From NCBI GenBank assembly GCA_963921825.1, contig OY997594.1, forward strand, positions 41,162,557-41,226,556: DNA of 64,000 bases. The letters run 5' to 3'. Position numbers and translations under genes: made by a program. Under the pieces are notes generated by a model. That model was not told the DNA's origin. It worked only from the letters and a program-made list of their open reading frames with translations, and searched no databases. Numbering within the stretch: the stretch's first letter is position 1; each line of letters starts with the position of its first letter. Source of the DNA: Erodium maritimum (lineage: Eukaryota; Streptophyta; Magnoliopsida; Geraniales; Geraniaceae). Positions 11,003-61,480 of this stretch are shown in pieces.

Positions 11003-13583
11003 TGTAAGACCCGCCCCCGGTCGATCCTGGTAGAACCGGTGAATCCTCACTCAGTTTGACTTTCGGCCGGAAAAGTCAACCGATGACTCGGGAAGTCACT
11101 CGGGACCTTTCTGGGCCCCAAAAAGCTTAGCCAACTTCACGGTTAGCTTAGTTGGGCCGTTTCCTTCAGTTTGACTGTATTATTGTTAAAGTCAACCGTC
11201 GGTCAAACTTGGGCTTTATATCAGTTGTTTTCCGATAAAATCTTGGAAAGCTGGAAATTAATTAAGTGGGAGTGACCACACATGACACTTGTCATGCTTG
11301 GCTTGGAGCATGAAAATGGGGCTTCAAATGACCCTCATACCCTCCTAACTTACCTTTAAAGGGATAAGACCTTAAGGGCTTTTGAGTAAATTGACATTTT
11401 AAGTCATTTAAAGGAAAGGGAGCAACAATTCAGCTCATTCCTTGTTGGTGCAGCCGAAATTCACTAGGAGAGAGGAGGAGGAGAGCCCATTTCTTGAGGA
11501 AGAAGATAGAGAAGAAAACTTGGATTTTGGAGCTTGTTCTTGGTCCTTTTGCCTCCATTTTCACTTCATCTTCTTCATCTCATCTCCCTAGAGGTAAGGA
11601 TACTCTTAACTCTCCATTTCATCCACTTCCAATCTATGGGTTTTGTGGGTTTTGGCTTAAAAGTTGAAGAACTTGCTTTGTGGGTGTTGCTTGGAGAATA
11701 AGTAGTGAAGTAGGATGTTTGGATTGTATTTTGGTTGAAGTTTTGATGAACCCATTGAGGGTGTTGATGTGGGGTAACTTTGGATGAACATTTTGGAGTT
11801 GAGAGGACTTGGAAATGGGGTTTTTATGGTGATGTTCGTGAAACTCGAGTTGGGGAAGAAAGGGGAAGAAACTGGTCAGGTTTGATACGGAACGTGGTAT
11901 GGAGAGTGTCACATTCCGGCCCTCTGAGTGGAACGGAACGTGCCACATTCCGGCCCTCTGAGTGGCATGGAGTGGGTCACATTCCGTATCAGACCCCTAG
12001 AGCCCCAAACCCTTCCTTTTAGCCCAATTTGATTCCCACATCACCTCTTCAAACCTTTGGTCCATTTCTGAGTATTGTTGCGTATTTTGGGGAGAAGAGC
12101 CCTTCGTTGGGGGGACTAATTTATGGTCTTTTGTGGTCCAAGACCGTGGGACCGAGCTAGGAAAGAAGGAAGAACTTTGACTTGAGCTTGAAGAACGAAG
12201 AGTCACGCCGGAACCCGTGTGAAGGACGGAGTTGTGATCACCGAGTTGTCAACAGAGTTTGGAGGTTTACCAAGAGGTAGGGAAAGTCTTAACTTCTCGT
12301 TTAAATGCTTAGTATGCATGTTAGGATAATAAAATCGGAAAGGTCCTAGAAATGCCTATAAGATGCGAATAACTAGAATAATTGTCTTTCAATTACTAAT
12401 AACCGGAAATGTCTAGTGATGTATGCTTAGGATGCCAATCACTAGTGTAACTCGCTTTCAATACTTGGGAATTGTTTTACTGGTAGAGTGGCCTTGGCAA
12501 AGCCCTCGGATTAGTTGTGTGTTAGGATCACATGCTTGGTCGTTTGGTTGCTTAGTGGATGGGCTAAAGAGTCTAACGGAACTAGTTGAATTGCATGCTT
12601 GAATGTTTGATTGAAGATTTATATGATTGGTTGCTTGAACTCGTGCTTGACTGTTGAATGTATTTGAATGATTGCTTGATTTCCTCAAATGGTTGATTGG
12701 GGAATCGAGTATGACTGGTTGTACCATTCGGTGCAATCAGGTGATCGATGGACCGATGGGTCAAGCCTGGTGACTAAATGGTAAGTTGTGGTTATGTGAT
12801 TCGTGTGCTGTGGTTATGTGATTCGTGTGCTATGTATTGTGGTGAAACGGTGATTCGTGAGCTATGTGTGGTAGTGGATTGGTGTTCGTTGGGAATGGAT
12901 TGCTTCGTGTTTCGCTTGAATGTGTTACTCAATTATATCTGATTATTATTGAATTGCCCAAGTGTTTGCTTCCTATGGGAGTAATACCTTGGTTCCCGAG
13001 GACATATAGTCCTTTGGAGATGTTTCTGAGAATCCCGATGATAAGCGCCCTTAGGGGGTTGTTTCCGGTAGCCTCAATGATATGCGTCTCCTCTGGACTT
13101 GAGGGAAAATCCGAGAGGACACATCATATGTGGATCGGAGGGTGGTGACTCCATGTGCCACGGCATTGATTAGATTACCTATTGCCCGTAATTGTTAAGA
13201 GTTATCTTGTTGACTTTGCTGATGAAATTATTGAGTTTAAAGTCCACCTTGTTATGTATTTTCCCTACTGAGCGCAAGCTCACCCCTATGAGTTTATTGT
13301 TGTGATTACAGGCTTGATTGAGGAGTAGAGGCTCGGGAGTTTCTTGGTGTGGGTGTCTTATTAGAGACTTCGTTTATGTTTTTGCATTAGTTTTTGAACA
13401 AACCATGTTGGTGGATTATTATTACACCCCTGGAGGGTTTTATTCATGTTTTGAACCGAGTTATTCTGTTTTGAGACTTAATTGAAGGATTTATGAAATT
13501 GTTGTTGGATGAATAGCGTTGAAAACTGTTTTTACTCAAGTCACGTCTCGAGTCCGGGCAAGAACCGGATTTGGGGCGTGACA
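11003..13583 (+). repeat. Gy-1 3' LTR
   Basis: A 2581 bp LTR running from TGTAAGACCC to GGGGCGTGACA. Its 34 bp repeat array has two units. The TGATA duplication follows at once. Confidence 0.95.
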
Positions 13584-13588
13584 TGATA
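13584..13588. repeat. Gy-1 target site duplication, right
   Basis: The second TGATA; the LINE-A coding sequence resumes through it. Confidence 0.93.
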
Positions 13589-15525
13589 AGTTCAGTTGGT
13601 CTTACTTATTAGACGTTATGAGCATTATGGGTTTTTCTGAGAAATGGAGACTGTGGATGACGAGCTGTTTCAGAGCTAATCTGCCAGTGTTAATTAACGG
13701 GGCACCTAGTGCTGATTTTGAAACAGAAAATGGTATCCGTCAGGGGTGCCCCCTTTCCCCCTTTTTATTTCTGTTGGCGGCTGAGGGTTTGAACCAAATG
13801 TTGTTGGACGTTATACAGGGTACTGATTTTAATGGAGTTGAGGTGGGACGTAATAGCCTGCTGGTGTCTCACTTGCAGTTTGCAGATGATACTATTCTTT
13901 TTATCAGAGGTGAGGAGGCGAGTTTGAGGAATGTGAAGTATGTGTTGGATTTATTCCAAGTAATCTCGGGTCTGAAAATAAACTATGCAAAGTCCAAAGC
14001 AGTATTACTGAATGGGGAATCTTTGTCTGAGGAGCTGATATCGTCCATTATGGGATGCGAGGTGTGCGATCTGCCCTTACCCTATTTAGGATTTCAGTTG
14101 GGTCTTTCCCCTAAACTTCTAAGGTTTTGGGAACCGGTTTTCATTCAGGTGAGAGAATACCTAAATGGGTGGAAAGCAAAGACCCTAAAAATTGCAGGCC
14201 GAGTTGTATTGTTGAAATCGACTTTGGCAGCTCTCCCGGTGTTTTACATGAGCTTGTTTAAGGCCCCTAGATCGGTGATACCTAAGCTGGAAAGGCTGCA
14301 ACGCCGTTTCCTGTGGTCGCATAGTGTGGCAAGAAGTGTTATTCATAGAGTAAAATGGGACAAGGTCTGCCGACCGAGATCGGAGGGCGGTTTGGGGATT
14401 AGAAGGCTGGAAGAGGTTAATTTAAGTCTGTTGGCGAAGTGGTTTTGGAGATTTGCTGAAGATGACACCACTCTCTAGAAGAAGCTAATTTGTGACAAAT
14501 TTAGATGGGATCCGAGACAGTGGGATTTGCTGAAATTGGAACGGCCGAATACATCATTTCTTTTTGGGCACATTATGAGTTTGGCCAGTGATCCGAGATT
14601 TCAAAGTCTTTTTGGAGGTCAAGGAATTCATTGGAAAGTGGGCAATAGAATGAGGGTGAGATTTTGGGATGACGTTTGGCTTGGAAATGAAGCTTTCAGG
14701 TTTAAATTTCCACAGTTTTTTATTGCTGCTCGTGACCAAGAAGCTTTGGTCAAGGATTACTGGAGAGATGGGCAGTGGGTGTTAGTCTACAGAAGTGCCT
14801 ATTTGTTCGTGAATTGGGTGAGGAACGTATGTTAAAGGAGCTCCTGAACTCTTTTGGTCTGTCTGATTCTCAAGACAAGTTGGTATGGGTCAAAGGGCCA
14901 CGTTTTACAGTGGGGGCGGTTTACAGGCTGATTACGCCTTCCTCTGATGCGGTAAGTTGGGCCTCCATTTTATGGGTAAAGCCCCCCCCCCCCCCCCCCC
15001 GAAATTCAGCATGTTTATGTGGCTGGCATTACATTCGGCTATCGCTACTATGTCCTTTCATGAGGCTAGAGGCTGCAGAATATCACTGAATGCTATGAGG
15101 TGTTATTTCCGTAAGTCTTGTTTTGAGGATTTGGATCACCTTTTTTTCTTCATTGTGTATTTATTTGGAGACTATAGGGTTTGTTGCACGAGTGGTGGTC
15201 TGTTCCCTGGGTGATGCCATCTTCCTTTATGGAGGCTTTTGAGAGTTGGACAATGGAGTCGGGGCGTTTGGGTGGTTCGGCATGGTTGAAAGTGTGCTAC
15301 TTGACTTGCTGGCATATTTGGTTACTGCGTAACGATATAGTCTTCCGTAGCAGGTCGTTGTCGGAAACAGAAGTTTTTTCCAGTTTAAGGACCCATGCTT
15401 ACAGTTTATTGCGGATGGCAGGAGATCTTTTACATGACGTTTCTTTTGATTTTTGGACTTTAGCCCCGAGATCTTGTTTCAGGGGAAGGCACATGCGCAG
15501 GGGAGTTGCTATAGGGGGGTTATAA
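13584..15525 (+). pseudogene. LINE-A ORF2, second part: RT palm, thumb and zinc finger
   Basis: This continues LINE-A after the Gy-1 insertion. The RT signature GIRQGCPLSPFLFLLAAEGL lies near 13735-13795 and the catalytic LQFADDTILF near 13875-13905. The LINE thumb follows (SGLKINYAKSKAV, PYLGFQLG, RRFLWSH, EGGLGIRRLEEVN). The zf-RVT region is recognisable near 15000-15330 (FSMFMWLALHSAI and later CWHIWLLRNDIVF). Breaks seen are a TAG at 14476-14478, a frame change near 14770, and another at a run of 19 C at 14982-15000. The reading ends at TAA 15523-15525 with no RNase H domain after it. Confidence 0.9.
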
Positions 15526-32689: not shown

Positions 32690-33075
32690 TTGCTCGGTAA
32701 CCTCTCTCACTCACGCGCTTTTTCAGTCCCGGTCAGGCCAGGCGGTCGACCTGTCTCAGTAACCTCTCTCACTCACGCGCTTTTCCAGTCCCAGTCAGGC
32801 CAGGCGGTCAACCTGTCTCAGTAACCTCTCTCACTCACGCGCTTCCCCGACACAAAGTCGAGCCAGGCGGTCGACTTGTCTTAGTAACCTCTCTCACTCA
32901 CGCGCTTTGCCAGTCCCGATCAGGCGAGGCGGTCGACCTGTCTCAGTAACCTCTCTCACTCACGTGCTTTACCAGTCCCGGTCAGGCCAGGCGGTCGACC
33001 TGTCTCAGTAACCTCTCTCATTCACGCGCTTTGCCAGTCCCGGTCAGGCCAGGCGGTCGACCTGTCTCAGTAACC
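32690..33075. repeat. 62 bp minisatellite in Gy-2 left LTR, six units
   Basis: The unit contains CAGTAACCTCTCTCACTCAC, GCGCTTT and GGCCAGGCGGTCGACCTGTC. The right LTR has five units at about 37466-37787. Confidence 0.9.
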
Positions 33076-33117
33076 ACAATCACAATCACAAGCAAGTTCA
33101 ACAAACAGCAACAACAC

Positions 33118-33490
33118 AGGTTCAACACTCCACGGGCACTCATGGCCACCCAAGACACACCGACAATAACTCACAGGCTCAACAACCCCACGGGCACTCA
33201 CGGCCACCCAAGACACACCAACAGTAACTCACGGGCTCAACGACCCCACGGGCACTCACGGCCACCCAAGACACACCGACAATAACTCACAGGCTCAACA
33301 ACCCCACGGGCACTCACGGCCACCCAAGACACCGACAATAACTCACGGGCTCAACAACCCCACGGGCACTCACGGTCACCCAAGACACACCCACAGTAAA
33401 GACACGGGTTCAACAACCCCACGGGCACTCACGGCCACCAAAGACACACCCACAGTAAAGACATGGGTTCAACAACGCCACGGGCACTCA
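33118..33490. repeat. 58 bp minisatellite in Gy-2 left LTR, about seven units
   Basis: The unit contains CCCACGGGCACTCACGGCCA and CCAAGACACACC. It is also found in the right LTR at about 37840-38200. Confidence 0.88.
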
Positions 33491-33798
33491 TGGGCTACAA
33501 GGAAAAGGCTCAACTAAGACCGCTGCAACGACGGCTAAGCTTTTTGGAACCAAAACGGACCTCGAATGGACCAAAACGTCGCTCGGTTGACTATTCCAGC
33601 AAAAAGTCAACATTTCCCAAATTGGTCAGAAAGTTGCACTGAGTCCCCCGAAACTCACTTTGGTCGATATCGGGGTCAACTTAAGTCCGGTATGACCCTC
33701 GGCGTCAAATTTGGGTTCATTTAAGTGTCTGTCCAAAAATTTTAAATTTTCCTGTTTTTCGCAGATTTGACTAGCGTTGACCGGGAGTGGTTCTTACA

Positions 33799-33811
33799 AT
33801 CTACCCCCCTT
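33799..33811 (-). promoter_or_regulatory. Gy-2 polypurine tract
   Basis: ATCTACCCCCCTT is the reverse complement of AAGGGGGGTAGAT, identical to the Gy-1 tract. Confidence 0.9.
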
Positions 33812-33829
33812 AAAGGAATTTCGTCCACG

Positions 33830-34330
33830 AAATTTAAAACAGACATACCTCTGAAGTCGAACAGATCAGGGTACTTCGCGCGAACCTCGTCCTCGCGTTC
33901 CCAAGTCGACTCAGCCTCGTGGTGCCGCCACTGCACCCATTCTAAGCGGATAACCTTTCCGCGTAGGACCTGCTCCCGCGGATCCATTTCCCAAACCAGT
34001 TTCTCCTTATACGAGACGTCATTCGTTACCTCGATATCTGCCCACTCAATGACGTGCGAGGGGTCCGCATATACTTCTGCAACTGGGAAACGTGGATCTT
34101 CTCATGCTGCGGCGGCGGTGCAAGTCAGTATGCAACTGCTCCCCTTCTACTCAAGAACTCGAAAGGCCCGATACACCGCGGGGCTAACCCGCCTCCTCCG
34201 TGGTTGAAACGCACCAGTCTACCTTTCGGACTCACCTCCAGGGATACATGGTCACCGACTGCAGACTCGAGAGGTCGGCGCCGTCTGTCAGCATAGCTAC
34301 TGCCGACTCTGCGCGGTCTTCAACCGCTCA
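33830..34330 (-). pseudogene. Gy-2 integrase C-terminus with chromodomain-like end
   Basis: The minus-strand reading at 33830-33987 gives MDPREQVLRGKVIRLEWVQW, then WEREDEVRAKYPDLFDF, close to the end of Gy-1 pol. Upstream (to about 34330) the remnants of the integrase C-terminal region (HVSQL-like) can be made out. It is a fossil piece next to the polypurine tract. Confidence 0.87.
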
Positions 34331-34804
34331 CGCTTCGGCATGACCGATTCAGCTGTCTCTCGGTCCAGTTCTAGACCCAGTGAACCCTCATTCCTCACTT
34401 CCGCCCCGCACACGGGCGACCGACACGGCCTACCATACAACGCTCCGAACAGTGCCATCATGATACTGGCCTGAAAGTTGTTGTTCTAGGAGAACTCGGC
34501 TAACCGCTCACGAAACCCATCGTGACGTGCCCCCATTTCCACTGTGCAACCCGCAGTGGCTGCAATAATCCAGCGGGACGCTGTTGTTCGGCTCTCACCT
34601 GCCGACGAGTGAGGCATCGCGATACTAACTCCGCGACCGCTCTCCGCATCCCGCTCTACTAGACATGCCACCTGATGTCGCGCTCCTCTTAGTGCTACCC
34701 ACGTGCACTGTCAGACGCGCATGCTGCGACTCTCGCAGCTCGTCGCCAGTAACAGTCGGTATTGGCTCGGCACTTCGCCAGCCAATCCATTCCCAAGATT
34801 ACAT

Positions 34805-35188
34805 TTAAAGGTTGTCATTTCGTATGTATCCTTCCCACGGATACACGCACAAGCTCAGTCGCTGCCGATCCTCACGGATCCTCGCAGTCTCTCTAAGACC
34901 TCGCTCCACTACCGTCGTCGTGCCTACCAACTCCGAACATACCCGATCCTCGGGGTAAGGACTCGATCCAGCATTAGGGCTCTTGAGCCCTCTCTCGAAC
35001 CTCATGTATCGGTTCGCTTCTCCAACTCTACAGGAATGACAGACCCTAGTCAACACCACCCTACCACCAACCGGCGTGTCCAGACGCAGGGGTGGACTCA
35101 ACGGCTCTAAACTCAGCCCCAACCTCTCCGCACAACTCGACGAACAAACGATTGTGACATCCCGGTATCCAATAAAACTGACGCCCAA
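34805..35188 (-). pseudogene. Gy-2 aspartic protease-like remnant
   Basis: The minus-strand reading contains CAERLGLSLEPLSPPLRLDT and PVGGRVVLTRVC. These fit the region just after the active-site flap of plant Ty3/gypsy pepsin-like protease. The canonical D-S/T-G triad is not clearly visible. It lies only about 0.5 kb from the integrase end, so RT, RNase H and most of integrase are not represented between them. Confidence 0.6.
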
Positions 35189-36009
35189 ATCGGAGACCGA
35201 ACACCCACTCCATTAGTCACTCCGGTAAGGTCTAGTGCAACCCTCACACGGTCCTCTATGCATTTACTTATAACTTTCCGCAACCAAACCAGTGTTCGCT
35301 ACTCGTCCCTTGCGGGAAAGTAGTAAAGAGGATGAGCGTTATGCTCACCTCCACGGACACCCGTTCGATTATGGCATACTAGTAAAGCACTAAAGACTTA
35401 CCGATCTAACCAGGGCAAACCACTACCTCAAAACCTGATGCCAAACGTCACACTGCTCACGCTATCAACACCTCAAGTACTCGCTCAAGTAAGATAAACC
35501 TCGACACGGGAAACACGTCCTCAATTCAGTGAATCACTATTGCTCACAACCCCAACACCCCAATACCCCAATTACCCGATCACGTAGGGAAACCTCAAGA
35601 CGGGGATCACGCTCTCAACTAAGCAAATACTATTGGTCACACTATCAATACCCCAATAATCCGAACACATAAGGAAACCTCAATTAACCCACTCACGTGA
35701 AGGAAACCTCAACCCACCCGTTCACGCGAGGGAAACCTCGAACACCCGTTTACATAGGGGAAACCTAGTTCGTATGGCGCCGCAGTGCACCAACCCTAAC
35801 CCCTCTCCATGGTGAGATTCTCACACCGAGGCGCTGTATCATTACCGTAGGTTATTGATGAGTCTCGAACCCAAAACCTCATCCTTTAACACTGAACTTA
35901 CGCTCTCTACAACCAACCCTACCGTGAACACAACCTCTCAAACCAACACTCAACCGTGCAAACGTGAACCCAGTCACGCAACAACAACACTAACAACACG
36001 ACGAAACCA

Positions 36010-36240
36010 AATTTTTTTGAAAGCAGCTGGCTGGACCAGGCCGGTAAGTGGGTCGGACCGTGCAGCATTCCGGGCCGGTGAGTGGCCTAGACCGCTCCAC
36101 CTTCCGGACCGAGCTTCCATCCAGGCCGGTAAGCCACCCAGACCGTGCGTCCCTCCGGGCCGGCAAGCCACCCGGACCATGCGTTCTTCCGGGCCAAACC
36201 AGTGGCCCCGACAACGTCTCCTACCGGGCCGGTCCACGGC
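36010..36240. repeat. GC-rich imperfect repeats in Gy-2 leader, about five copies
   Basis: The recurring pattern is GGGCCGGTAAGCCACCCGGACC with variants such as AGGCCGGTAAGTGGGTCGGACC, spaced about 45-50 bp, between the primer site and the coding remnants. Confidence 0.7.
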
Positions 36241-36879
36241 CTGCCCCGTAGGTGTGACGATGTCGCACTCAACACAACCGCTATGTCTACCCTAGGGCAC
36301 TCGTATCTTACCCTATTCATAGCGACCCGCACATTAGTGTGTCGCAGACATTCGACCACCAACCTAACGGCACACGTACAATAATTCAAGACCAAACACA
36401 ACTCACTCAACCTCAATCCCAAGCCAACACGGCCAAACAACAACACAACAACACTCGCCCACCGGGCCAACCAACTTAAACACACGCCCACAGGGCCAAC
36501 CAATTTTAAAACACGCCCACCGGGCCACAAACTTTAAAGCTTCCTCCTTCTCATTACAAAACCTCATTTTTGACATCACGTAGTTACAACTCGGTCCAGG
36601 CATCCACGAACCACATTGTACCCACTGATGTCAACACCGTCACGTTCGACTACAGGAGCGCTCATGAGTCGAGTCGCGACAGCTTAAAAATGTTTCACTA
36701 AGGAACACACAAACAGTATGCCAGTAACCCCGTACTGCACATACACACAAACACAAACAGGACTCACAACACAACGGGTCTACACACGGTTCCGACCTGC
36801 GTACCCAACGCACGACGGGACTTTACTAACTCGACTCTCCCCACCTAATTGACGTACAGTCCGAGGTGTGAAACCTCGA

Positions 36880-36893
36880 GCTCTGATACCAAG
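36880..36893 (-). promoter_or_regulatory. Gy-2 primer binding site
   Basis: GCTCTGATACCAAG contains the reverse complement of TGGTATCAGAGC, the initiator tRNA-Met site, beside the right LTR. Confidence 0.88.
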
Positions 36894-39219
36894 CTATCAC
36901 GCCCCAATTTCAGAAAACCGAACTCGGGACGCGAACGTTTAAAAACAATAAAACATTTTGGAACCTTTTACATTAAATCACTTTAAAATCACCATTTGTT
37001 CATCAAAAATAATCATTTACAACTTAAAGGTACGTCCCAACAAATGGACAAAAGCATGGTATACGTCACTAGACTCAACAAAAAACCCAGAATCCCGCCC
37101 CTACCTCTTCAAGCTTCGGAAGCTCACCTAGTCCAACCTGCGACCGGTACCTGTAGGAAAAGCAGCTAGGGGTGAGCGTTCGCTCACCACCACGGATAAC
37201 ATACTGACTACGGCATACTTAGCAGACAATGTCGGTAACACCAACAACCAACTCAATACCGGGGATCACTATCCCCAAACTCAAGTAACCCGACTGACAC
37301 ACACACACTGATACTTTCCTCAACCGACTCAACACTCGGACACATAAAGTGGACCCGACTCAACGATTGACGACCTCCTCCAAAGACACGACAGACAACC
37401 ACTCAACACCCAAGATCACAAAGGATCGCACACCAAACAAGATCACAAAGGATCGCACGCTAGCTGCTCAGTAACCTCTCTCACTCACGCGCTTTGCCAG
37501 TCCCGGTCAGGCCAGGCGGTCGACCTGTCTCAGTAACCTCTCTCACTCACGCGCTTCGCCGACACAAAGTCGGGCCAGTCGGTCGACCTGTCTCAGTAAC
37601 CTCTCTCACTCACACGCTTTGCGAGTCTCGGTCAGGCCAGGCGGTCGACCTGTCTCAGTAACCTCTCTCACTCACGCGCTTTGCCAGTCCCGGTCAGGCC
37701 AGGCGGTCGACCTGTCTCAGTAACCTCTCTCACTCACGCGCTTTACCAGTCCCGGTCAGGCCAGGCGGTCGACCTGTCTCAGTAACCACAATCACAATCA
37801 CAAGCAAGTTCAACAAACAACAACAACACAGATTCAACACTCCATGGGCACTCACGGCCACCCAAGACACACCAACAGTAACTCACGGGCTCAACGACCC
37901 CACGGGCACTCACGGCCACCCAAGACACACCGACAATAACTCACGGGCTCAACAACCCCACGGGCACTCACGGCCACCCAAGACTCCGACAATAACTCAC
38001 AGGCTCAACAACCCCACGGGCACTCACGGCCACCCAAGACACACCAACAGTAAAGACACGGGTTCAACAACCCCACGGGCACTCACGGCCACCCAAGACA
38101 CACCCACAGTAAAGACACGGGTTCAACAACCCCACGGGCACTGATGGCCACCCAAGACACACCCACAGTAAAGACACGGGTTCAACAACCCCTCGGGCAC
38201 TCATGGCCACCTAAGACACCAACAGTAAAACACGGGCTCTCATGGCCACCCAAGACACAACAGTAAAGTACGGGCTCTCATGGCCACCCAACACACAAAT
38301 TACACAAACAACCTCCGGGCATAACCATTGCCTCCAGTAGTCCTAATATCAACAATTTCACAATCAACCTCCGGGCATGGTCACATGCCTCCAGTACTCC
38401 TAATATCGATAAGTTCACAATCAACCTTCGGGCATGGTCATATGCCTCCAGTAATTCTAACATCGATAAGTTCTCTGCTCCTACGACACTACTAAGTGTC
38501 ACGTGCATTTCCAATCTTCGATAACCTACTTAACCCATGACACCCCAAGTGTCACATGCATTTCTAATATTCGATAACCTACTTAACCCACGACACCCAA
38601 GTGTCACATGCAATTCTACTGTTAACTTTCCCTAGTCAAGGCCGAGATCCGGCTACTTTTCCCTACCTCGTAATGCGTTCCCACAAGTTCACAACCAAGC
38701 TCCGGCGTGCGCACGATCACTCGCCTAGCTTTCCCTTTACGCGGTCCTCAGCACGATCTAACAAGATCACAATTAAAACACTTTTTAAGTTTGCAGACAA
38801 AGCTGAATTTTAATGAATTTGACGCCCAAACTCAACCCCGACAATGTTGATCACTCCCAAACTTCCCAATTACTCGACATTTTCAATAATGGGCCCGGAA
38901 AGGCCCGTTTCGCCCGACCCGGCGAATCTGCCCGGGATTGGAAAACGTCCTTCCGGGGCTCCGAAAATTCCCGTTTTCGTTTCTACGGTCTTAGAATAAT
39001 TCAAGGGTTCCAACGCAATCGACGGAATCAATTTCCGACTCCCGAGCAATTTAATTCGCGTTTAAAGTTTCTAAAACCGTCAATTACAACTTTTACAATT
39101 TAATTCCATAATTCGTCCCGGGTGTGAATTATCGACCCGGGGATCATCCAAGACCACCCGAACACGAAAAACCCGAGGCCCGACCATGTGGGCCCCACAC
39201 GGCCACAACGAAAAATGTT

Positions 39220-48252: not shown

Positions 48253-48257
48253 CTGGG
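48253..48257. repeat. Gy-2 target site duplication, right
   Basis: The second CTGGG; LINE-C coding sequence resumes. Confidence 0.92.
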
Positions 48258-48917
48258 GGTATTTGGAACAGTTTTTATCTATAATTGGGTTTGGCGCAAA
48301 ATGGAAAAGCTGGATGTCTTCTTGTTTTCAGGCTTGGTCATCAGTTTTGATCAATGGCTCTCCTTCCTCTGATTTTTAGCTCTCAAGAGGTTTGAGGCAA
48401 GGTTGCTCTCTCTCACCCTTAATATTTTCCCTTGCAGTTTAATGTCTACATCAGATTCTTGAACAAGGCATATTAGCTGATAATTTTGAAGGTATTTCTT
48501 GTGGAGCACAAGGTCCTGTCATATCTCACCTTCAATTTGCTGATGACACTATGATTGTCATTAAAGCAAAGTCCCCTCACCTACACAATCTCAAATCCTC
48601 ACTCAAAGCATTCCAGTTAGCCTCTGGCCTAAAAATCAATTATCATAAATCAAAGGTAGTCATACTCAATTCAAACACTTTTACAGTTGAAGAGGTCTCT
48701 AAAACTTTGGGCTGTGAACCATCTGTCCTACATTTATATTACTTGGGTTTCAAGTTAGGGGAAAATCCTAGAAGGTATAATACTTGACTACCAATCATTG
48801 CTAAATTCAAGAAGAAGTTAAGTATTTGGCAGACTATAATGCTCAATTTTGGGGGTATGATAACACTTATTAAATCCTCCTTCTCCTCTCTCCCCCTCTT
48901 ATATATGTCTATGTTCG
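48258..48917 (+). pseudogene. LINE-C ORF2: RT palm and thumb after Gy-2
   Basis: The sequence resumes with LEQFLSIIGFGAKWKSWMSS, then RGLRQGCSLSPL, SHLQFADDTMIVIKA near 48525-48560, SGLKINYHKSKVVILNS and YYLGFKLGENPRR. The final recognisable part, ITLIKSSFSSLPLLYMSMF near 48860-48917, corresponds to LINE-A VVLLKSTLAALPVFYMSLF. Sequence after that no longer matches, so the element is broken off in the thumb. There are internal stops near 48378 and 48786. Confidence 0.88.
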
Positions 48918-49329: not shown

Positions 49330-50658
49330 GCAATACGCTAAGGTGCATCTTGAATCTCAATCAAGGGATTCTCTAGGTTTGGATTTCTTAAACAGTGGAG
49401 CTTCTACAGTTCAGCCACAAAGCTCTTTTCTTCTGCTTGATCTGGAGCAGATACAAATCAATGAAGTTGTTGATTTTTTAGGTTTGTCTACAAAAGTTTC
49501 TAAACAAAATCAAAAGTTCATCACAAAGAAGAAGAAATCTATTAAAGGCCTTACAGGCCCTTCACCCCACTCTTACAGCACCAGATCAAAAGTCAAAGAG
49601 GCTGCTCCATCTGATCTTTCTGCTACAGGTTCGTTCAAAAACACTCTTTTCTTGAAGAAAAATCCATAGATAAAAATTCCTGGGCCTTTGGAAAGCTATT
49701 GGATTAAAGGCTAGAGTTTCCGATCAAGAGATCTATAACCAATTAAATGCCTTAGAAGATCTCAAAAACCACTCGGTAGACTTTGAGGGAGGCTTTGATG
49801 ATGATTTTGTTGATCTAGATAGAGATTCTGACTCTGAACATATGTTGGATAAGAGTTCCAACTTCATCTCTTCAGACTAAACCCTTTGAAGGTGGAGGTC
49901 TTATTGACTCCTTTGAGTTTTTGTTGAGTTGTGGGCAGTTTCTAGTGTATTCGGTTGGTTGGGGGTTTTTATGCGTTGGTTTTTTGTTGTTGGTTGCTTG
50001 GCTGTGGGCTTCTGTTTATTGCTTGTAGAGAGTGGATAATTTCCTTCTTAGACCTTTTGAGGTTGTTTAGCATTGCGTGGAAGATATGTTATTTTTTTTG
50101 CTTCTTCAACAGCTCTTGGTTGATTTGGGTGTTTTAAGAGGTTTTAGATATTCAGTTTAGAAGGTCTCTTTTTGGTTTGGTTTTAATTGAATCGTAGTTC
50201 TTCCGAGTGTGCTCAGGGTGTTGTAGCGGTTTCTTTCTGGTTCAGTCCTATTTGGTTCTCTACTTCGGAGTGGTTGGAGGTTGTCCCGAGGCTTTGGGGT
50301 GAGTTTGTTTTGGGCTTATTGGTTGTGGATTTCAGGTTGCAGACCTTTTTTGTTCATCTGTTAGTGTTTGGTTGTTCAGCAGTTGTTAGTTGTATTGTTT
50401 TCTTGAAGGTTGTTTTATTCTTTGTTTCTTGAAGTGTTTTTTTTTGGTTTGGTTCTTTTTAGGTAGTCCTCCGGGTTTCTTGCTGTGTTGTTTGGGTTTG
50501 GCTGATTCTTCGGCCCTGTGTTGTTGGTTTTCTTGGTTAGTTGTGCCCGTTATTGAAGGCTTCGTCCTTCTAGGGTTTTTGAGGTCTGTAGCCAGACTTA
50601 TTGTAACTTCTCTTCTTCGCCGTGAGAGGTTTCATTTAAATTTGTTTTGCTGATAAAA
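49330..50658 (+). mobile_element. LINE-D: ORF1 end joined to LINE 3' tail, no ORF2
   Basis: An ORF1-like reading (49343-49669, lysine-rich with KFITKKKKSIKGL) continues in another frame to a TAA-terminated acidic tail (about 49690-49880; GKAIGLKARV, then FDDDFVDLDRDSDSEH). This matches the ORF1 ends of LINE-A and LINE-C. ORF2 should follow, but instead a T/G-rich 3' UTR-like stretch runs to TTGCTGATAAAAAA at 50645-50658, a common plant LINE end. The whole ORF2 is therefore absent. It may be a deletion copy or an ORF1-only LINE, like mammalian HAL1. Confidence 0.7.
49343..49880 (+). pseudogene. LINE-D ORF1, C-terminal part
   Basis: Two overlapping-frame pieces: 49343-49669 with a basic patch (KKKKSIKGL, TRSKVKEA) and a following acidic end with a TAA near 49878-49880. 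The basic-then-acidic order is the same as in LINE-C. There is one frame change near 49670-49690. No DUF4283 or zinc knuckle lies in the preserved part. Confidence 0.65.
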
Positions 50659-51152
50659 AACTTGAATAACTTCAAATAAACCTAGGCAGGTATATGAGTA
50701 AAGGATAAAATTTGTTTAAACTATAACTAGGATAATTGATTTTCTACTTAAAAATCATTGAATTTGTTGACAACCCTTTCCTCTATACACTCAAATCTCA
50801 TCCACTCATGTTCAAGACTTGAATTGGTTCCTTTAATTTGCAAATACCAAAAATGCAACACTTGAGCAAGTCAGTTTATTCTGATTGTCGAAAATTTTGA
50901 ACCTTTTAAGAAATTAGTTCTCTGTATTTATTTTGTTCAAGAAATAAGATGTTCTTCTCCATTCCATTTCATCCATGTTCTAACTAGTGAAGACCAAAGT
51001 GAATGTATTGCATGTTTTTATTCAATCTGAAATTTGGATGAGTTTTCCCTATACTATATAGGAAAGTAAATGATTACAAATAAGTTAGCTATCTCTATTA
51101 ACTCATTCAACAGTTTATTATTAGCTTTTATCTACCTTTATTTAACTAATTC
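50659..51152. other. Unassigned AT-rich spacer
   Basis: No coding region or known repeat is recognised. Near the right end two similar stretches lie about 50 bp apart: TTCAACAGTTTATTATTAGC (51099-51118) and TTCAACAATCTATTATT (51150-51166). The second is the target of the composite element. Confidence 0.45.
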
Positions 51153-51166
51153 AACAATCTATTATT
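51153..51166. repeat. Composite element target duplication, left
   Basis: AACAATCTATTATT is repeated exactly at 53797-53810. Confidence 0.88.
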
Positions 51167-51189
51167 TATTTTTTGATCAGCAAAGCATA

Positions 51190-51328
51190 GTTATTTGGGG
51201 TTTTTTCCTTTTCCTTGAGGGTTCTAAATTGTATTAGTTTGGTGACTTGAGAGTTTGTACTAACTCTTGGCCTTTTCTTTATTTCAAAGAATTGGACCAT
51301 CAATAAAACTTTTGCTGATAAAAAAAAA
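51190..51328 (+). mobile_element. LINE 3' tail fragment
   Basis: A T-rich stretch ends CAATAAAACTTTTGCTGATA plus A9, like the end of LINE-D. It is in plus orientation inside the minus-strand composite element. Confidence 0.65.
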
Positions 51329-51442
51329 TATTTAAATTAAACATCTCTCAAGGAGGAAGAGGAGTACATGAAGAGAGTCTAGCTACAGACTCTCCAACAA
51401 AAAAGGACCACAACAACGGCTACCCCTCTGGTAGCTATGAAT

Positions 51443-51740
51443 GGGTACGCAGACCCTGAAGATGAATGAGTACGCAGACCCTGAAGTGATGAAAGGGTAC
51501 GCAGACCCTAAAACCCCACACCGGGGAAACCTCTGAAGTGAAGTGAATGGGTACGCAGACCCTGAAGTGAATGAGTACGCAGACCCGGAAGTGAAGTGAA
51601 TGGGTACGCAGACCCTGAAGAGAAGGGGTACGCCGACCCAGAAGTGAATGGGTACGCAGACCCTGAAAAGAATGGGTACGCAGACCCTAAAGTGAATGAG
51701 TACGTAGACCCTGAAATGAGAAGGGGTACGCAGACCCGAG
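51443..51740. repeat. 24 bp VNTR, about 11 units
   Basis: The core GGGTACGCAGACCCTGAA is followed by GTGAAT or similar. The period is 24 bp over much of the array, with a few longer gaps. Because 24 is a multiple of three, it codes an 8-residue repeat on both strands (around NGYADPEV on plus, SGSAYPFT on minus). Confidence 0.9.
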
Positions 51741-53796
51741 AATGAAAAAAGACGGCTAAAAAAGGAGACTCACACCCGAATATAGCCACCATGAAGCACA
51801 AAAAAAGGCCTCAAACCCAGATTTGTCAACAATAAATCACTGAAAAACTAGTCGTCTTCCAAAGTAATCACCAAAGACTTTACCCTAACTTGATAAGAAA
51901 ATTGTATCTCATCGGCACCCAAACTCAGCGAGTTAAAAGATATCGACACGCCAACGACCAACATCGCATAATGGCAGAGATAAATCGGTGTACACCGAAA
52001 ATTAAAACCCGTAAGAAGGACTTCTCGATTTCCAAGGCCTAAAGACCCAGTACAGCCCGTCAAAGGCCAATACCTAAAAATGACAGGCCCTACAAGCAAG
52101 GCAGAAGTACAGAGGAAATCAAAACGAGCCTACTTGTAAGGCTGAGCAGAAATCCTATAAGTTATAGATAACATCCGCGACGAGTGACAGGCCAAAATCA
52201 CGACGAATCCGAGCTCGGAAGCGCCTCCCACGATGAAACTGGACGAAGACACCCGAGAGCCACCACGATCAGGTCCGGAAAACAGCCAACAACACGTAGT
52301 ATCAGAACCTGGTCGAACCGCTAGATCTATGACGATCAACACCCAGGAGGATGTAGAAATGCGTCCCACGACCGGATCTAAGGCAAAAAAACAGGTCAGC
52401 AGATGAGCCATCAGAAGTAGACGAGCAGCTCTGCAATGATCCACTCCCTGAAGGAAGAAGAAGCGCGTCCCACGACCAGAGCTAGATCTAGACACATATC
52501 CAAAAACCCGAAAGACGATCCGTTGTCAATACCGTGGGGACGAAGTAGACAAAGATACTCGTACTCGGTCCTCCGAATCCTGACACGGTCAACACCGAGA
52601 AGGGCCAAAGGGGGGGACCGGTATTTCTACCTAGTACGAACTCATCCTTCCAAGCAAGCAACAGCAAATCAAACCTCTCGGAGAAGCAAAACTGCAACTC
52701 GAGCTGAGCATTCCTAAACCGTGAAAGGTTACTCCCTATTGATGAAAACCAGCGAGGACCCGAAGGGGAAGGCATGTAATGATACCGAGTCGAGCCAATC
52801 CGAACCCGAAGAAAGTTGACACCAAAGCTAGCAGCGAAGAGCATTGCCTTACAAAGGCCGAACCACCAAAAAGGCGGACTTCCCGAACAACAGCACGACA
52901 TCGACCCGCAAAACAAAACTCCAACCAAACCCAACCTCCAGCTAAGCCAGTCGACCAAGGAATCCGGAAGCAGCACCGAAAAAACCCGAGCGACGCAACA
53001 AGGAACGAACTAGGTCTTTGGGGAGTAACCAACCTGGCCCAAGGCTTAGTCATACCCGGCCCAGGCCTGCCTGAACAGATCCAGGATTAGCCCAGCCAAG
53101 GCAGACCAGGACTGGCCCAAACCGGCCCAGACCCAGCCAGCCCACAAACCCGGGCGCAGACCAAACCCATAACCCGGCCCAGATTCGGTTCCAAACAAGT
53201 GCGACGAAACCATACCTGCCGTTATTGTACGGACGGCTGCCCACCAGACCAGCGACGAGCAACATGACCAAGTCGGGAATCCACCACACCAGTCGGCGAC
53301 GAGGTCCGGCGATGAGATTCGGCCAAGAACTCCCCAGACTAGACGGAAGGTCGTCCAAAAATGAAGCAGTACGAGCTCCGGCGACGAGGCCTGGCGAGGC
53401 ACGTATCCACCACACCAGTCGGCGAAGAGGTCCGGCAAGCCACGAGCATCACACCAACCTGAGCAAACACGACTAGTAGAGATCCGAAGCAGGTCGGGGC
53501 GACGAGCTTCACAACAGCACCGACCCAAGGAGCACGCGCAGGCCGAGCCTTCACCAGTGAGCTACGAACTCCAGCAGGCAGGACAGGACGGGAGCAAAAG
53601 TGACGTGAAGAAGAGGGGGGAGCAATAGAAGGAAGACAGGTAAAGAGGGAAGAGGAAAGGGGGGAAGGAGAAGCCTCGCCGACAAGACTCATGGCCAGAG
53701 CCATGGTCTTCACCGACGGGGGTCGGGAGGGGTAACGGCGCCGAAAGCAAAGTAGGGTTTTTGAGGGGAAGCTTTTAGAGAAAAAATAAGACTCCT

Positions 53797-53810
53797 AACA
53801 ATCTATTATT
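53797..53810. repeat. Composite element target duplication, right
   Basis: The second AACAATCTATTATT, followed after one base by the MITE duplication. Confidence 0.88.
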
Positions 53811-53811
53811 A

Positions 53812-53821
53812 GCTCTCAGGA
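53812..53821. repeat. MITE target duplication, left
   Basis: GCTCTCAGGA is repeated at 54899-54908. The length fits Mutator-like elements (9-10 bp). Confidence 0.85.
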
Positions 53822-54898
53822 GAGGTGAAATCGGCTACAAACCACTCTTAACCTAAAAACTAGAGAACCAATCCTAGCCACACACACCTAACATCCAACA
53901 TTCACCATGATGCCACATCATCACCCCAATTTCACCCAAACTCTCGCAACTTTCATCTTTTCTCACACAAGCAAGGGCATAATTGTAAAAGCATGGTGCC
54001 ATGTGGACAAGTGTCCATTTTTTTCTTCACCAATTCACTAATTTAATATTTCCTGATTCGTTTGAACTCCGATTAGCTTCAAACTTGCGCCAATATTTTT
54101 ATTTTTTCAAGGGCTTTTAATCAAGATCAATCATGAATATATTTTGAAGCACGAAAATAAAAGGTATATCGGAGTGATAAAAATAATGTTGAGTGTTGAT
54201 AAATCTTCACTAATAAATGTTTATATCGGAGGTATCAAACTAGTGCTAAATGTTGATAAAAACATGTACTGAGGTGATAAAAATCATGTTCAATTTTGAT
54301 AATAAGTGTGATAAACTAGAGTTTAGGATTGATAAAAAAACATGTGATGGGGTGATAAAAACACATGTAATTTAATGATAAACATATTGTTTAGTGTTGA
54401 TAAAACTGGTGTTCATAAAAAGCACGTGATGAGATGATAAAAATCATGATCAATTTTGGAGAATAGGGTGATAAAATCAATGTAGAGTGTTGATAAAACC
54501 AGTGTAAAAGTGTTGATAAATCCAGAGCAAAGTGTTTATAAAAATTACCCAGATTTTTTTATAAAAAAAATCAACATCGAAATAAATATTTTTTTTCGTG
54601 CTTCAAAATATATTCATGACTGATCTTGATTTAAAGCCCTTAAAAAGCAAAACTAATGGCGCAAGTTTGAAGCCAATCGGAGTTCAAACGAAGCGGGAAA
54701 ATTTAAATTAGTGAATTGATTAAAAAAAATATGATAGTTTTACTAAAAAGCCCTTACCACTTACTATAAAGTGATGTTTTTTTGCAGTCAACAAGTCAAC
54801 TATTCAATTGCATCTCATCCATCCATTCTTAAAATAGATGGCTTAGATTGGTTCTCTAGTTTTTAGGTTAAGACATGGTTTGTATTTTATTTCTCCTC
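53822..54898. mobile_element. Mutator-like MITE with long terminal inverted repeats
   Basis: A 1077 bp element with ends GAGGTGAAAT and ATTTCTCCTC and a 10 bp duplication. The arms pair over roughly 300 bp: for example TAACCTAAAAACTAGAGAACC near 53850 against its complement near 54850, and GAATATATTTTGAAGCACGA near 54133 against its complement near 54600. No transposase is present. The core (about 54170-54525) is AT-rich with many GATAAA motifs. Long arms, a G start and a 9-10 bp duplication point to a non-autonomous MULE that would need a transposase in trans. Confidence 0.85.
54170..54525. repeat. GATAAA-rich degenerate array in MITE core
   Basis: About 13 copies of GATAAA, mostly as TGTTGATAAA or GGTGATAAAAA followed by CATG-like bases, are spaced about 20-40 bp apart and all in the same orientation. 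Confidence 0.8.
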
Positions 54899-55502: not shown

Positions 55503-56922
55503 ATGTACAGGGAGTCGCTGGAGGCGCTGGAGCGACGGCGGCGGAAAGGAAAAGCGGTGGTCGAGGTAGGGGCTAACCCTAGCGAGTCTGGGCCGGGAGA
55601 GGGACAACGGACTGGGCTGGGCCGCGGGGGGACATTCATGGGGGATGCGCGTCGTCCAGGCTTGGGCCAGGACAACTGGGTCCCTAGAGTGGGCCGGGGA
55701 GGTAGGACTGGTTCGTCTGGACCGGGAGATGTGGCCAGGTGGGCGGCCCGATATGGTGTGGGTCGTGCCGATATAGGAGGGGCAGGGCTGGCATCACGAG
55801 GCCAAGCTCGTCGGCCGGTGACCAGGACGACCATGGGTGACCGGGAGGACTGTCTCGAGGAGGAGACGGGAGAGGAGGGGGGGATGCCGGAGTTGGATGC
55901 ACGCCTCTCCTCTCTCTGCATTAGGGAGGTTGTCGTCCCGACAGGGGATATTGCCAAGGAAGGAGGGCACTTCCAATTTGCTCTCGCCGCTAAAGTTCTG
56001 ACATCGAAGCGGTTCTTCTGGAAATCTCTGGTGGAACGCATGGAGGATCTTTGGGGCCTGAAGGTGGAGGCTCGCCCTCTGGAGGGGGGTTTGGTTGGTT
56101 TTTTCTTCCGCACGGCACGGGAGCGTGCGCGAGTCTTGGCTGGGGAACCATGGGCGTTCTGGGAGTCCCTGGTCCTATTTACGGACCTGCGAGCTCATAT
56201 GCAGGTGAGCGAACTGAGCTTCCATCAGTTCTCGGTTTGGGCCAGAGTCTCCAACTTACCAGTGGGAGCCTGGAACAGAGAGGTGGGATTTCGGATCGGC
56301 AGTGCTCTGGGCATCTATCAGGCTGTGGATGTGGACGGGGCAGGGAGGTGCTGGGGTGATTTCATGCGGATTAGAATCCAGGCAGATATCCGCCAGCCGA
56401 TGCAGAGTCAGCTTTGGTTCCGGTTATCGGAATCGCAGGTACGAACATTACAACATATTTCCAATGAGTACTTACCGGACCATTGGTATGGATGTAGCTG
56501 CGCGGGTCACCTGTTTCCGTCGTGTCCGGTGACGGGTGGGACCAGGGGCCACTCGTTGCGTGCCCCGGGGACCCGAGGTCGGCCTTGGAGAAGGCCAAGC
56601 ATGGGAAGGTGATCCCGGGTACGAACTGGAACTACGGGGAGGCAAGGAATAAGGGGGGTCGGGGGGGGGGGGGGGGGGGGGGGGGGTGCGGACGCCATCT
56701 CCGCGATATAGGCCCGGAAGGGAGCAGGAGAAGACCTATGAGACGGAACCCGAGGCGGTACCGTCTAACGGGGCACAGAAGGAGCTGAGTCCGACACTTT
56801 CTGGGAAGTAACGCCTAGCGAGGGAGGAAGATCAGATCGAGTCAGAGGACTCGACAACGTCTGATTGGGAGTCACAGGCAGCAGCGGCGGGGGGCGCCAA
56901 GCACCCCCGCCTGAAGGAATGA
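55503..56922 (+). pseudogene. LINE ORF1 protein, DUF4283 with degenerate CCHC knuckle
   Basis: ORF1 binds element RNA and supports LINE reverse transcription. The frame is open from 55263 to 56612, but the first codons lie in the inverted arm. I prefer ATG 55503 (MYRESLEALERRRRKGKAVV), after the arm. A DUF4283 domain spans about 55917-56320: FQFALAAKVLTSKRFFWKSL, GLVGFFFRTARERARVLAGE, FHQFSVWARVSNLPV. A knuckle-like GCSCAGHLFPSC near 56490-56525 is two residues shorter than the usual CX2CX4HX4C. The frame then changes between 56612 and 56827, a region that holds a run of 26 G (56661-56686). The end (IESEDSTTSDWES, then KHPRLKE) stops at 56920-56922. No ORF2 follows in this unit. Confidence 0.82.
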
Positions 56923-59820: not shown

Positions 59821-61480
59821 TTCATGGCCTTAAAGATGGATATGAGCAAGGCCTATGATAGAATGGAATGGTCTTTCCTCTTATCCATGATGGGTGCTTT
59901 TGGTTTTGACGTGGGGTGGAGGTCTTTGGTCCTCGCCTGCATGCGGTCTATCCAGTACATGGTGAGTTCGGATGGCAAGCATATTGCCCCCTTCACAGCT
60001 GGGCGGGGGATTCGCCAAGGTGATCCGTTGTCCCCATATCTATTTCTGTTCTGTATGGAAGGCCTATCGCGTATGATCAACTAAGCTAAAAGGGATGAGA
60101 CTCTTCACGGGGTTTCAGTGGCCAGAGGAGCCCCGATAATATCTCACATCTTTTTTGCAGATGATTGCTATATCTTCTGTAGGGACGACCCGGATGAGGC
60201 TGCACAACTTAATCAAATCCTACAATCTTTCGGACAATTGTCGGGTCAGGTAATCAACAAGGGCAAGTCATCCATTTTCTTCAGTACCAATACCCCACCA
60301 GCAAACCGGGCGGCCTACTGTGGCATTCTAGGGATCCAGGAGATTTCAGGCCCGTCTAAGTATCTTGGGGTTTCGAACATGCTGGGACGGCGCAAAGGTC
60401 AGAGCCTCCAATTTCTGTGTGATCGGATTGTGGCTAAAATAGGAACTTTGGATGGCCAAATGCTTTCTGCAGGGGGTAAAGAGGTGATGATTCGGTCAGT
60501 ACTTCAAGCCATGCCGATTTATGCCATGAGTGTGTTCCTTCTACCAGGGACTCCATCAACAAGATCCACGTTGCTTTAGCTCGATACTGGTGGACGGGGA
60601 CCCTTAGAGGTAACAACCCGATTATCTGGCAGGACTGGAAGAAGCTTTGTATACCAAAGGATGATGGGGGAATGGGTTTCCGGGACATGAGAGACATGAA
60701 CATAGTTATGTTGGCCTAAATGGGATGGAAGTTCTGGACCCAGCCATATAGTTTGATCGCTCGCATTTTCAAGGCTAGGTATTACCCAAAGGGTGATTTT
60801 CTAACTGTAGACGGAGGTAATAATCCCAGTCAAATTTGGACGGGCCTTCGCGCTACACAGGATCTGCTTAGGTAGGGGTTGATTCGGACTATTGGGGATG
60901 GTTGTTCGACTATGGTGGAGGGGTCTCCCTGGCTCCTAGGGAATAACCCGGTCATCCCACTTCGTACTTGCCTCATCCCGGACATGAGGGTGTCAGAGCT
61001 GGCTTCGGAGGCCTATTGTGGGACATCCCGAAACTCCAACAGAACTTTTCTCCAGCCATTGTGGAGGACATACTACAGGTGACCCCTCCTCTTCCACAAC
61101 ATTTAGACAAATGGTCATGGAAGTACAATATTCGGGGAGTGTACTCGGTCAAGGAAGTGTATAGGGCGTTATCCCGGGAGAATGGAAGATGGCATGTATC
61201 GGCTGCCACGACGGTTTGGACGGGTATTTGGGACCTGGACATCCAACCGCGCATAAAGGTTTTCCACTGGCGGGATTTATCTGTTACTTTACAAGTTGCG
61301 GTCAATCTTCGAACAAAATTCGTCCCGATTTCGGATACTTGCCCAATATGTCAGGGTGATCAGGAGACTACCGACCACCTCCTCCTCCACTGTCCGTTCG
61401 CTCGATCAGTCTGGGCTTTATCAGGTTCGCAGGTCCCTATCCCCCCCCCCCCCCCCCGGGTACTTTACATGATTGGATAT
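59821..61480 (+). pseudogene. LINE-E ORF2: RT palm, thumb and zinc finger
   Basis: The piece at 59824-60084 reads LKMDMSKAYDRMEWSFLLSM and RGIRQGDPLSPYLFLFCMEG. The next (60118-60579) reads SHIFFADDCYIFCRDDPDEA with the catalytic FADD, then SGQVINKGKSSIFFS and KYLGVSNMLGRRKGQSLQFL. The thumb continues in another frame past 60600. The zf-RVT finger (CPICQGDQETTDHLLLHCPF) is at about 61340-61400. A run of 17 C at 61441-61457 follows. Stops lie at 60082-60084 and near 60577, 60718 and 60873. Confidence 0.92.

Follow-up and report, generated by a model that had tools for sequence, protein, structure and literature searches.

A dispersed non-coding retroposon with a variable tandem repeat in Erodium maritimum, probably mobilised by an L1 lineage

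The window analysed here is a 64,000-nucleotide stretch of Erodium maritimum (contig OY997594.1 of assembly GCA_963921825.1, positions 41,162,557 to 41,226,556), and it contains on its minus strand a 2.63 kb element with a variable number of tandem repeats (VNTR) near its 3′ end. This element is probably a non-autonomous, non-coding VNTR-composite retroposon, mobilised in trans by the lineage of L1 long interspersed nuclear elements (LINEs) to which the reverse transcriptase (RT) sequence at window 48443-48784 belongs. A preliminary description, made from the letters alone, had seen here a composite resembling primate SVA; its observation is confirmed by the genome-wide analysis, and its interpretation is supported.

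A duplication-bounded copy and its dispersed family

The window copy is built of unlike parts (table 1) and is framed, as first described, by an exact duplication. Read in the sense direction, it starts with AGGAGTCTTATTTTTTCTCTAAAAGCTTCCCC and finishes at 51189-51167 with the poly-A-like ...CTATGCTTTGCTGATCAAAAAATA. Over the 5′-most 1.8 kb the GC content is 0.50-0.60. The body had been called non-coding, and indeed none of its 10 open reading frames (ORFs) matched a Pfam family above the cut-off, the two weak matches having E 0.045 and 0.055. Rfam returned no match at E 0.1 over 50500-54000, hence no Alu-like region was detected, and ARAGORN found 0 tRNA genes in 50900-54000. The B-box-like GGTTCGANNCC occurred 0 times in the window, with 0.5 expected by chance. 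There were no long terminal repeats (LTRs): Tandem Repeats Finder and a duplication search gave only the 14-bp duplication and the VNTR, which had also been described before.

Table 1. Parts of the window copy, in window positions
Feature	Positions	Strand	Remarks
Whole retroposon copy	51167..53796	-	5′ end 53796, 3′ end 51167; 2630 bp, of which 139 bp are a nested insertion; duplication-bounded
Target-site duplication at the element's 3′ end	51153..51166	.	exact 14-bp repeat AACAATCTATTATT, abuts the copy directly
Target-site duplication at the element's 5′ end	53797..53810	.	exact 14-bp repeat AACAATCTATTATT, abuts the copy directly
3′ terminus TATGCTTTGCTGAT and short A-rich tail CAAAAAATA	51167..51189	-	genome-wide termini and the copies' 3′ ends
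Nested 5′-truncated L1 LINE 3′ end, 139 bp	51190..51328	+	later insertion in the window copy
Terminal hairpin 2, CCUCUU...GAGAGG in most copies	51343..51362	-	predicted in most of the 33 tails of other copies folded as single sequences
Hairpin 1, GGAGAGUCUG-UAGC-UAGACUCUCU	51372..51395	-	8-10 of 10 standard pairs in 34 family tails
24-bp VNTR, sense unit GGGTCTGCGTACCCATTCACTTCA	51438..51746	-	11 units in the window copy; Tandem Repeats Finder
3′ module with VNTR, ~970 bp, common to VNTR-family copies	51329..52298	-	main match of 22 of 29 other loci ends at 52289-52312
Middle module	52298..53000	-	78-95% identity per 100-bp bin to L002, L005 and L036
5′ terminal module, start TCTCTAAAAGCTTCCCC	53544..53796	-	70-89% identity to L014, L046 and L057

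The antisense LINE end noted in the preliminary description is a real L1 fragment, with 40 other scored places in the genome (best 92%) and 81-84% identity over 101-148 bp to the 3′ ends of three RT-bearing L1s (L080-L082, below). It is not, however, part of the family plan, because none of the 18 other 3′ ends compared that extend to the terminus contains it. It is a later nested insertion; no clean duplication of its own was seen.

Searching the one genome (763 Mb, 40 contigs) with the window copy gave at least 64 matches including itself, with 40 of 3366 candidates scored, so the element is not single-copy. Where copies extend to the 3′ end they share a single end point, GAGAGAGGTTTAATTTAAATATGCTTTGCTGAT followed by A's with minor variants, beyond which they diverge (18 compared), and the flanks of dispersed copies are unrelated. 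The terminus was found at 340 genome places with up to 3 mismatches (reversed-pattern control, 0); the figure is not a count of family copies, since it takes in truncated ones and, probably, related families that have this tail. From 23 additional loci with an exact terminus 14 were sampled, and 12 of them carry the VNTR module, while L049 and L054 have only the last 90-105 bp. L054 was considered as a second VNTR joined to the tail and rejected, its repeat being by eye the 58-bp unit of the arrays at window 33115-38236; it is more simply a short 5′-truncated copy inside an element with 58-bp units. L049 is likewise 5′-truncated.

Target-site duplications were sought in the 36 of 47 loci that have a recognisable terminus, under one rule (exact duplication of at least 11 bp). 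Exact duplications of 12-21 bp bound 20 of the 36, the window copy included, around elements of 431-2621 bp; when 3′ flanks were exchanged between loci, 11 of 720 trials succeeded under the same rule. Eighteen of the 20 bounded elements measure 1.5-2.6 kb, and the other two are 5′-truncated (L026, 751 bp; L058, 431 bp). L1 endonuclease sites start with A, as do 17 of the 20 duplications, a count blurred by the A's of the tails. The 24-bp VNTR ranges from 6 to 26 units across 32 copies counted, and the 5′ end TCTCTAAAAGCTTCCCC is common to L046, L057 and the window copy. These are the signs of a mobile family that the preliminary description had looked to: shared ends (the 3′ end in many copies, the 5′ end as well in three), different flanks, individual duplications and differing VNTR counts. 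A count of the 5′ pattern (51 places) was rejected as a tally of full-length copies, because both AAAACTCCCCC-variant places examined, L078 and L079, belong to an unrelated repeat; they are 87% alike, and L078 has 58-bp tandem units like those of the window 33115-38236 arrays.

No LINE enzyme match lies inside the duplication-bounded copies. Six window LINE ORFs compared by tblastn with L001-L030 matched only in flanks: past the 3′ end of L019 (an endonuclease), far upstream in L006 (the end of an RT) and in L001 (the neighbouring ORF1). The 14 further loci also had their LINE matches outside the elements (L045, L049 and L058). With the same ORFs L037 and L038 gave no match, and L036 gave RT matches in its 3′ flank.

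The 3′ tail and a candidate L1 partner

Hairpin 1 of the tail varies little across the 34 family tails, and a second hairpin is predicted before the A/U-rich end in most folds. In L036, a member of another family, 10 of 10 pairs of hairpin 1 are intact despite 11 of 24 changed positions. Measured against shuffled sequences, tail similarity reached z 17.7 for L074/L076, 16-18 for L074/L076 and the fragment at window 49331-50655, and 5-16 for L036-L038.

The same plan of terminus is found in an RT-bearing L1 lineage. The fragment at window 48254-48916 (plus strand) belongs to this lineage, whose members end in TTTGCTGAT-A(n) where examined; it is the RT lineage of window 48443-48784, with at least 149 further places and open frames of up to 1260 amino acids. 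L080 and L081 were picked blind at the expected distance, 2.3 kb downstream of the RT in frames of 1202 and 1192 amino acids; L082 was chosen for an already known tail match (chance expectation 0.012). All three end with predicted hairpins of the GAGAGUU...AACUCUU type and UUCUUU...AAAGAA, a spacer, TTTGCTGAT and A(8-9). Their tails resemble those of the retroposons with z 3.8 (L080), 5.6 (L081) and 3.1 (L082), 0-1 of 300 shuffles scoring as high, while the upstream tail parts differ between the L1s and the retroposons.

Other LINEs of the window were considered as the autonomous partner. The RT lineage of window 13582-14475 is not favoured, because the 12 members examined, L060-L070 and window LINE A, have TATC followed by A's at their ends (TATCC in L068). 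LINEs at ~22.9-27.25 kb and 55.2-62.2 kb were rejected, since they end in TTTCAAAA. As an aside, L060-L070 and window ~15640 have predicted hairpins of their own, with a UUCAUUGUACU/AGUAUAAUGAA stem in several members.

Elements with ORF1 share the tail as well. L074/L076 is an element with an ORF1 (RRM_1, E 2.4e-4) and no ORF2 match, and only the tail is common to it and the VNTR copies. The neighbouring plus-strand sequence at window 49331-50655 is a 5′-truncated L1 derivative that runs from an ORF1-like C-terminus, identified through the RRM-bearing relative L074/L076, through a T-rich 3′ untranslated region (UTR) to the TTTGCTGAT tail, without ORF2; its ORF1 piece has at least 149 further genome places. 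Mammalian elements of the HAL1 type are ORF1-only, non-autonomous L1 derivatives that use the L1 3′ end. The 49331-50655 and L074/L076 type is a possible plant counterpart of these; the 49331-50655 fragment is a neighbour of the window copy, and no ORF1 was detected in the VNTR family itself.

Counter-evidence, alternatives and mosaic modules

Several results weigh against a family mobilised by the 48443-48784 lineage through its tail. No duplication was found under the rule in 16 of 36 loci (L002, L006, L007, L013, L016, L018, L019, L024, L047 and L049-L055), whose 5′ ends may lie beyond the flank examined or whose repeats may have diverged; L051 has an A-rich 13-bp candidate that the rule excludes. 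A further 11 of 47 loci are without a recognisable terminus and thus outside the duplication test. Covariation in hairpin 1 is weak: among 17 distinct sequences, one of them from the neighbouring ORF1-bearing fragment, 158 of 170 pairs are kept, with a shuffle mean of 154.3 and 124 of 5000 shuffles as high or higher. In L080-L082 the RT and the terminus were read as separate stretches ~2 kb apart, and their linkage is presumed. No VNTR-family terminus lies 1-4 kb downstream of the 149 listed RT places (74 of 340 termini compared), so the candidate partner L1 and the retroposon share the plan and the last nine bases of the tail rather than the full tail. The tail score also separates lineages poorly. 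Of ten tails of the 13582-14475 lineage, which span z -0.5 to 3.5, eight lie between -0.5 and 2.9, and the other two, at 3.4 and 3.5, match the scores of L080 and L082; what sets L080 and L082 apart from the TATC lineage is their exact TTTGCTGAT end, not the score. Lastly, in L005 the middle module continues to the equivalent of window 52172 and is followed after 30 bp by ORF1-like sequence (L005 2288-2704), which matches the L074 ORF1 at 36% and 33% identity (E 4e-14 and 1e-4) and starts in mid-ORF1. L005 has no recognisable terminus and is the only one of 47 loci with an ORF1 match adjoining the module; the stretch may be a nested truncated insertion, a template-switching fusion or the trace of an L1 with the body as its 5′ UTR.

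One alternative is that recognition is relaxed to the poly-A end, the situation in mammalian SVA and Alu, and that the hairpin tail is a relic with no part in it. Such recognition has been proposed for the plant lineages ME2/ME3, according to the accessible text of PMC3747384, the copies do end in A-runs, and the weak covariation of the hairpin fits it. We nevertheless regard it as unlikely, though deserving to be taken seriously. The tail is the most widely shared part of these elements: the VNTR family, L036, L037/L038 and two ORF1-bearing elements have related tails (z 5-18) on otherwise different bodies.

Alternatively, the family could have arisen from an autonomous L1 by internal deletion, its GC-rich body being the 5′ UTR and the VNTR module the 3′ UTR, with ORF1 and ORF2 lost. 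Plant L1s have GC-rich 5′ ends, and this genome holds an L1 derivative with ORF1, without ORF2 and with the same tail. The junction in L005 can be read this way, and L031, a longer stretch of the L002 locus, has an ORF1-like match that precedes the element match by ~2.5 kb in the same orientation. However, the L005 junction is a single case, and a start in mid-ORF1 fits a nested 5′-truncated insertion or a fusion equally well. The one ORF1-bearing element examined with its upstream side shows no similarity to the body, and no partner-lineage RT occurs within 8 kb downstream of 39 body places (149 RT places listed). The sense-strand match of L080-L082 to the retroposons is confined to the tail region, and the body is itself a mosaic, as described below. 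A full-length LINE explaining the body as ORF1 and 5′ UTR, the possibility raised in the preliminary description, was not seen at any locus examined, with two caveats, the ORF1-like sequence of L005 and the unread 5′ UTR of the partner. We consider a deletion origin distinctly unlikely.

The mosaic is seen when each copy is compared with the window copy in 100-bp bins. Bins 1-3 are best matched by L014, L046 and L057 (70-89%), and bins 9-15 by L002 and L005 (82-95%) and L036 (78-88%). L037 and L038 reach 89-92% in the three bins 10-12 and fall to 59-68% in the adjoining ones, whereas bins 16-24 or 25 are matched by most VNTR copies, L046, L050, L051, L053 and L057 matching well only from about bin 20 or 21. 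The breaks between modules lie near sense 800-900, 1513 and 1945-2065. The body at 52290-53796, searched alone, found 39 other loci; in most of them the match covers query 933-1499 and breaks off close to the start of the VNTR module; ~35 loci beyond those already named have the middle module at 74-81%, mostly over 500-570 bp. L037 and L038 are complete retroposons of 2086 and 2206 bp, with 13-bp and 16-bp duplications, in which the middle module is joined to another 3′ end, TTTTGCCGAT. In 19 copies (18 of the duplication-bounded ones and L051) the 3′ 500 bp fall into two clusters at both thresholds, and the 5′ 700 bp into six at 50% coverage and three at 30%. Because 5′ clusters merge at the looser threshold, some 5′ parts are diverged homologues.

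These opposed patterns are hard to explain without an exchange of modules, and the body is a mosaic, its 5′, middle and VNTR-3′ modules being found elsewhere in different combinations. The pattern might instead reflect unequal divergence in one old family, with the 3′ half conserved and the 5′ half drifted; the 5′ 700 bp of 16 of the 19 copies do form one cluster at the loose threshold, and L046 and L057 keep 66-73% identity in bins 14-16. We judge this quite improbable. L036 (bins 9-15) and L037/L038 (bins 10-12) resemble the window copy in the middle and differ from it at the 3′ end. In L046 and L057 it is the 5′ end (70-89%) and the VNTR-tail part (76-93%) that match, and bins 4-13 do not. 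Identity also jumps sharply at about sense 1513 and 1945-2065. The notion that there is no mobile family, only segmental or satellite-like duplication or rolling-circle (Helitron) copies, draws on the tandem nature of the VNTR and the resemblance of the modules to captured fragments, but is contradicted by the 12-21 bp duplications, A-rich tails, fixed 3′ end and unrelated flanks, and is scarcely credible.

Some further elements and features were seen. L077, found among the body matches, is another member with no LINE protein match, a short similar VNTR and a TTTGTCGAT end. L036, L037, L038 and L077 represent non-coding retroposon families sharing the middle module, with the 3′ ends CCTTGCTGAT, TTTTGCCGAT and TTTGTCGAT, and a recurrent CCATGG...CCGG motif was noticed by eye in their 5′ regions. 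Elsewhere in the window, 32693-33490 and 37467-38236 are two copies of paired tandem arrays with 62-bp and 58-59-bp units, ~4.7 kb apart and perhaps inside the LTRs of an LTR element; their 58-bp unit recurs in L078 and, by eye, in L054. On the plus strand, 1208-2053 and 13582-14475 appear to be parts of a single L1 ORF2 separated by an insertion of ~11.5 kb, an element that has matching 34-bp tandem arrays at 3162-3310 and 11906-11986. Long homopolymer runs, which may be expansions or assembly artefacts, occur at 14982-15000 (19 C), 56653-56686 (34 bp, G-rich) and 61441-61457 (17 C); both C runs lie within apparent L1 ORF2 remains.

Known systems, mechanism and meaning

SVA elements have an A-rich end and target-site duplications, and both features are present in the plant family. 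SVA, LAVA, PVA and FVA are described in the accessible text of PMC4432496 as hominoid-specific VNTR composites mobilised in trans by L1, a mobilisation shown there for these elements and proposed by us for the plant family. Like them, the plant family is non-coding and combines dissimilar domains with a VNTR whose length varies, the shared VNTR being joined to different end domains. In contrast to SVA, it has no Alu-like region, its unit is 24 bp instead of 30-50 bp, its VNTR lies near the 3′ end, its host is a plant, and its 3′ end imitates a hairpin-bearing L1 tail. The SVA-like label of the preliminary description thus holds for the plan and probably for the mechanism, but not for membership.

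Among plant elements, Sadhu of Arabidopsis is, as far as we are aware, the nearest relative in kind. The pattern CAATCGTTSC, its 5′ motif, occurs with up to 1 mismatch at 4 places in the window, none of them in 51167-53796. Sadhu elements are ~900 bp long, with 39 related sequences in A. thaliana, and resemble the present family in being non-coding plant elements with poly-A, target-site duplications, strongly diverged subfamilies and presumed LINE mobilisation, whereas the present family is mostly 1.5-2.6 kb and the accessible Sadhu text mentions neither a VNTR nor a shared LINE tail (PMC2848041). On the best reading, the plant family behaves as SVA does without belonging to either SVA or Sadhu.

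For the tail, the closest precedent is the pair formed by maize ZmSINE2/3 and the L1-clade LINE1-1_ZM: as the accessible text of PMC3747384 describes, a LINE and a non-autonomous element there have in common a short 3′ end with a hairpin. ZmSINE2/3 are monocot short interspersed nuclear elements (SINEs) with a tRNA promoter and a CGAG/UCU hairpin (same text), unlike the present family of 2-2.6 kb, in which no tRNA part was detected and which has another hairpin and a UGCUGAU end. That text, a 2013 review by Ohshima, puts the number of SINE/LINE tail pairs in flowering plants at just three. Compared with an L1-clade LINE, the family has the 3′ terminus of an L1 lineage, and neither RT nor endonuclease was found in it. 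Among the literature titles and abstract openings listed there were no plant VNTR-composite, SVA-like or chimeric LINE-derived elements, most subscription papers and the transposable-element databases being outside the scope of that search.

The family might move as follows. An RNA would be transcribed from the GC-rich 5′ end, starting near TCTCTCTCTAAAAGC and crossing the VNTR, and would close with UUUGCUGAU and a short A-rich tail, A(n). Its last ~100 nt would imitate the 3′ end of an autonomous L1-clade element, with two hairpins, an A/U-rich spacer, UUUGCUGAU and A(n). Proteins of the L1 lineage of window 48443-48784, recognising this hairpin tail, would nick the target and use the target's 3′ end as primer for reverse transcription of the RNA in trans. 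Such target-primed reverse transcription would leave the 12-21 bp duplication and sometimes a 5′ truncation, as in L026 and L058. The 5′, middle and 3′ modules were probably exchanged by template switching between co-packaged RNAs, and the VNTR may have changed length by slippage.

More broadly, we lean slightly towards the view that plants have VNTR composites of their own, independent of hominoid SVA and LAVA, here as a large superfamily of non-coding elements under one tail recognised stringently by an L1 lineage and with modules freely exchanged by template switching. If so, the L1 tail would act as a docking site that makes unrelated sequences mobile once they are attached to it. Two questions would become testable: do VNTR composites originate more than once, and do the L1 enzymes of plants recognise a particular hairpin tail at the 3′ end? 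Repeat annotation would also gain a family that protein-based pipelines would probably miss.

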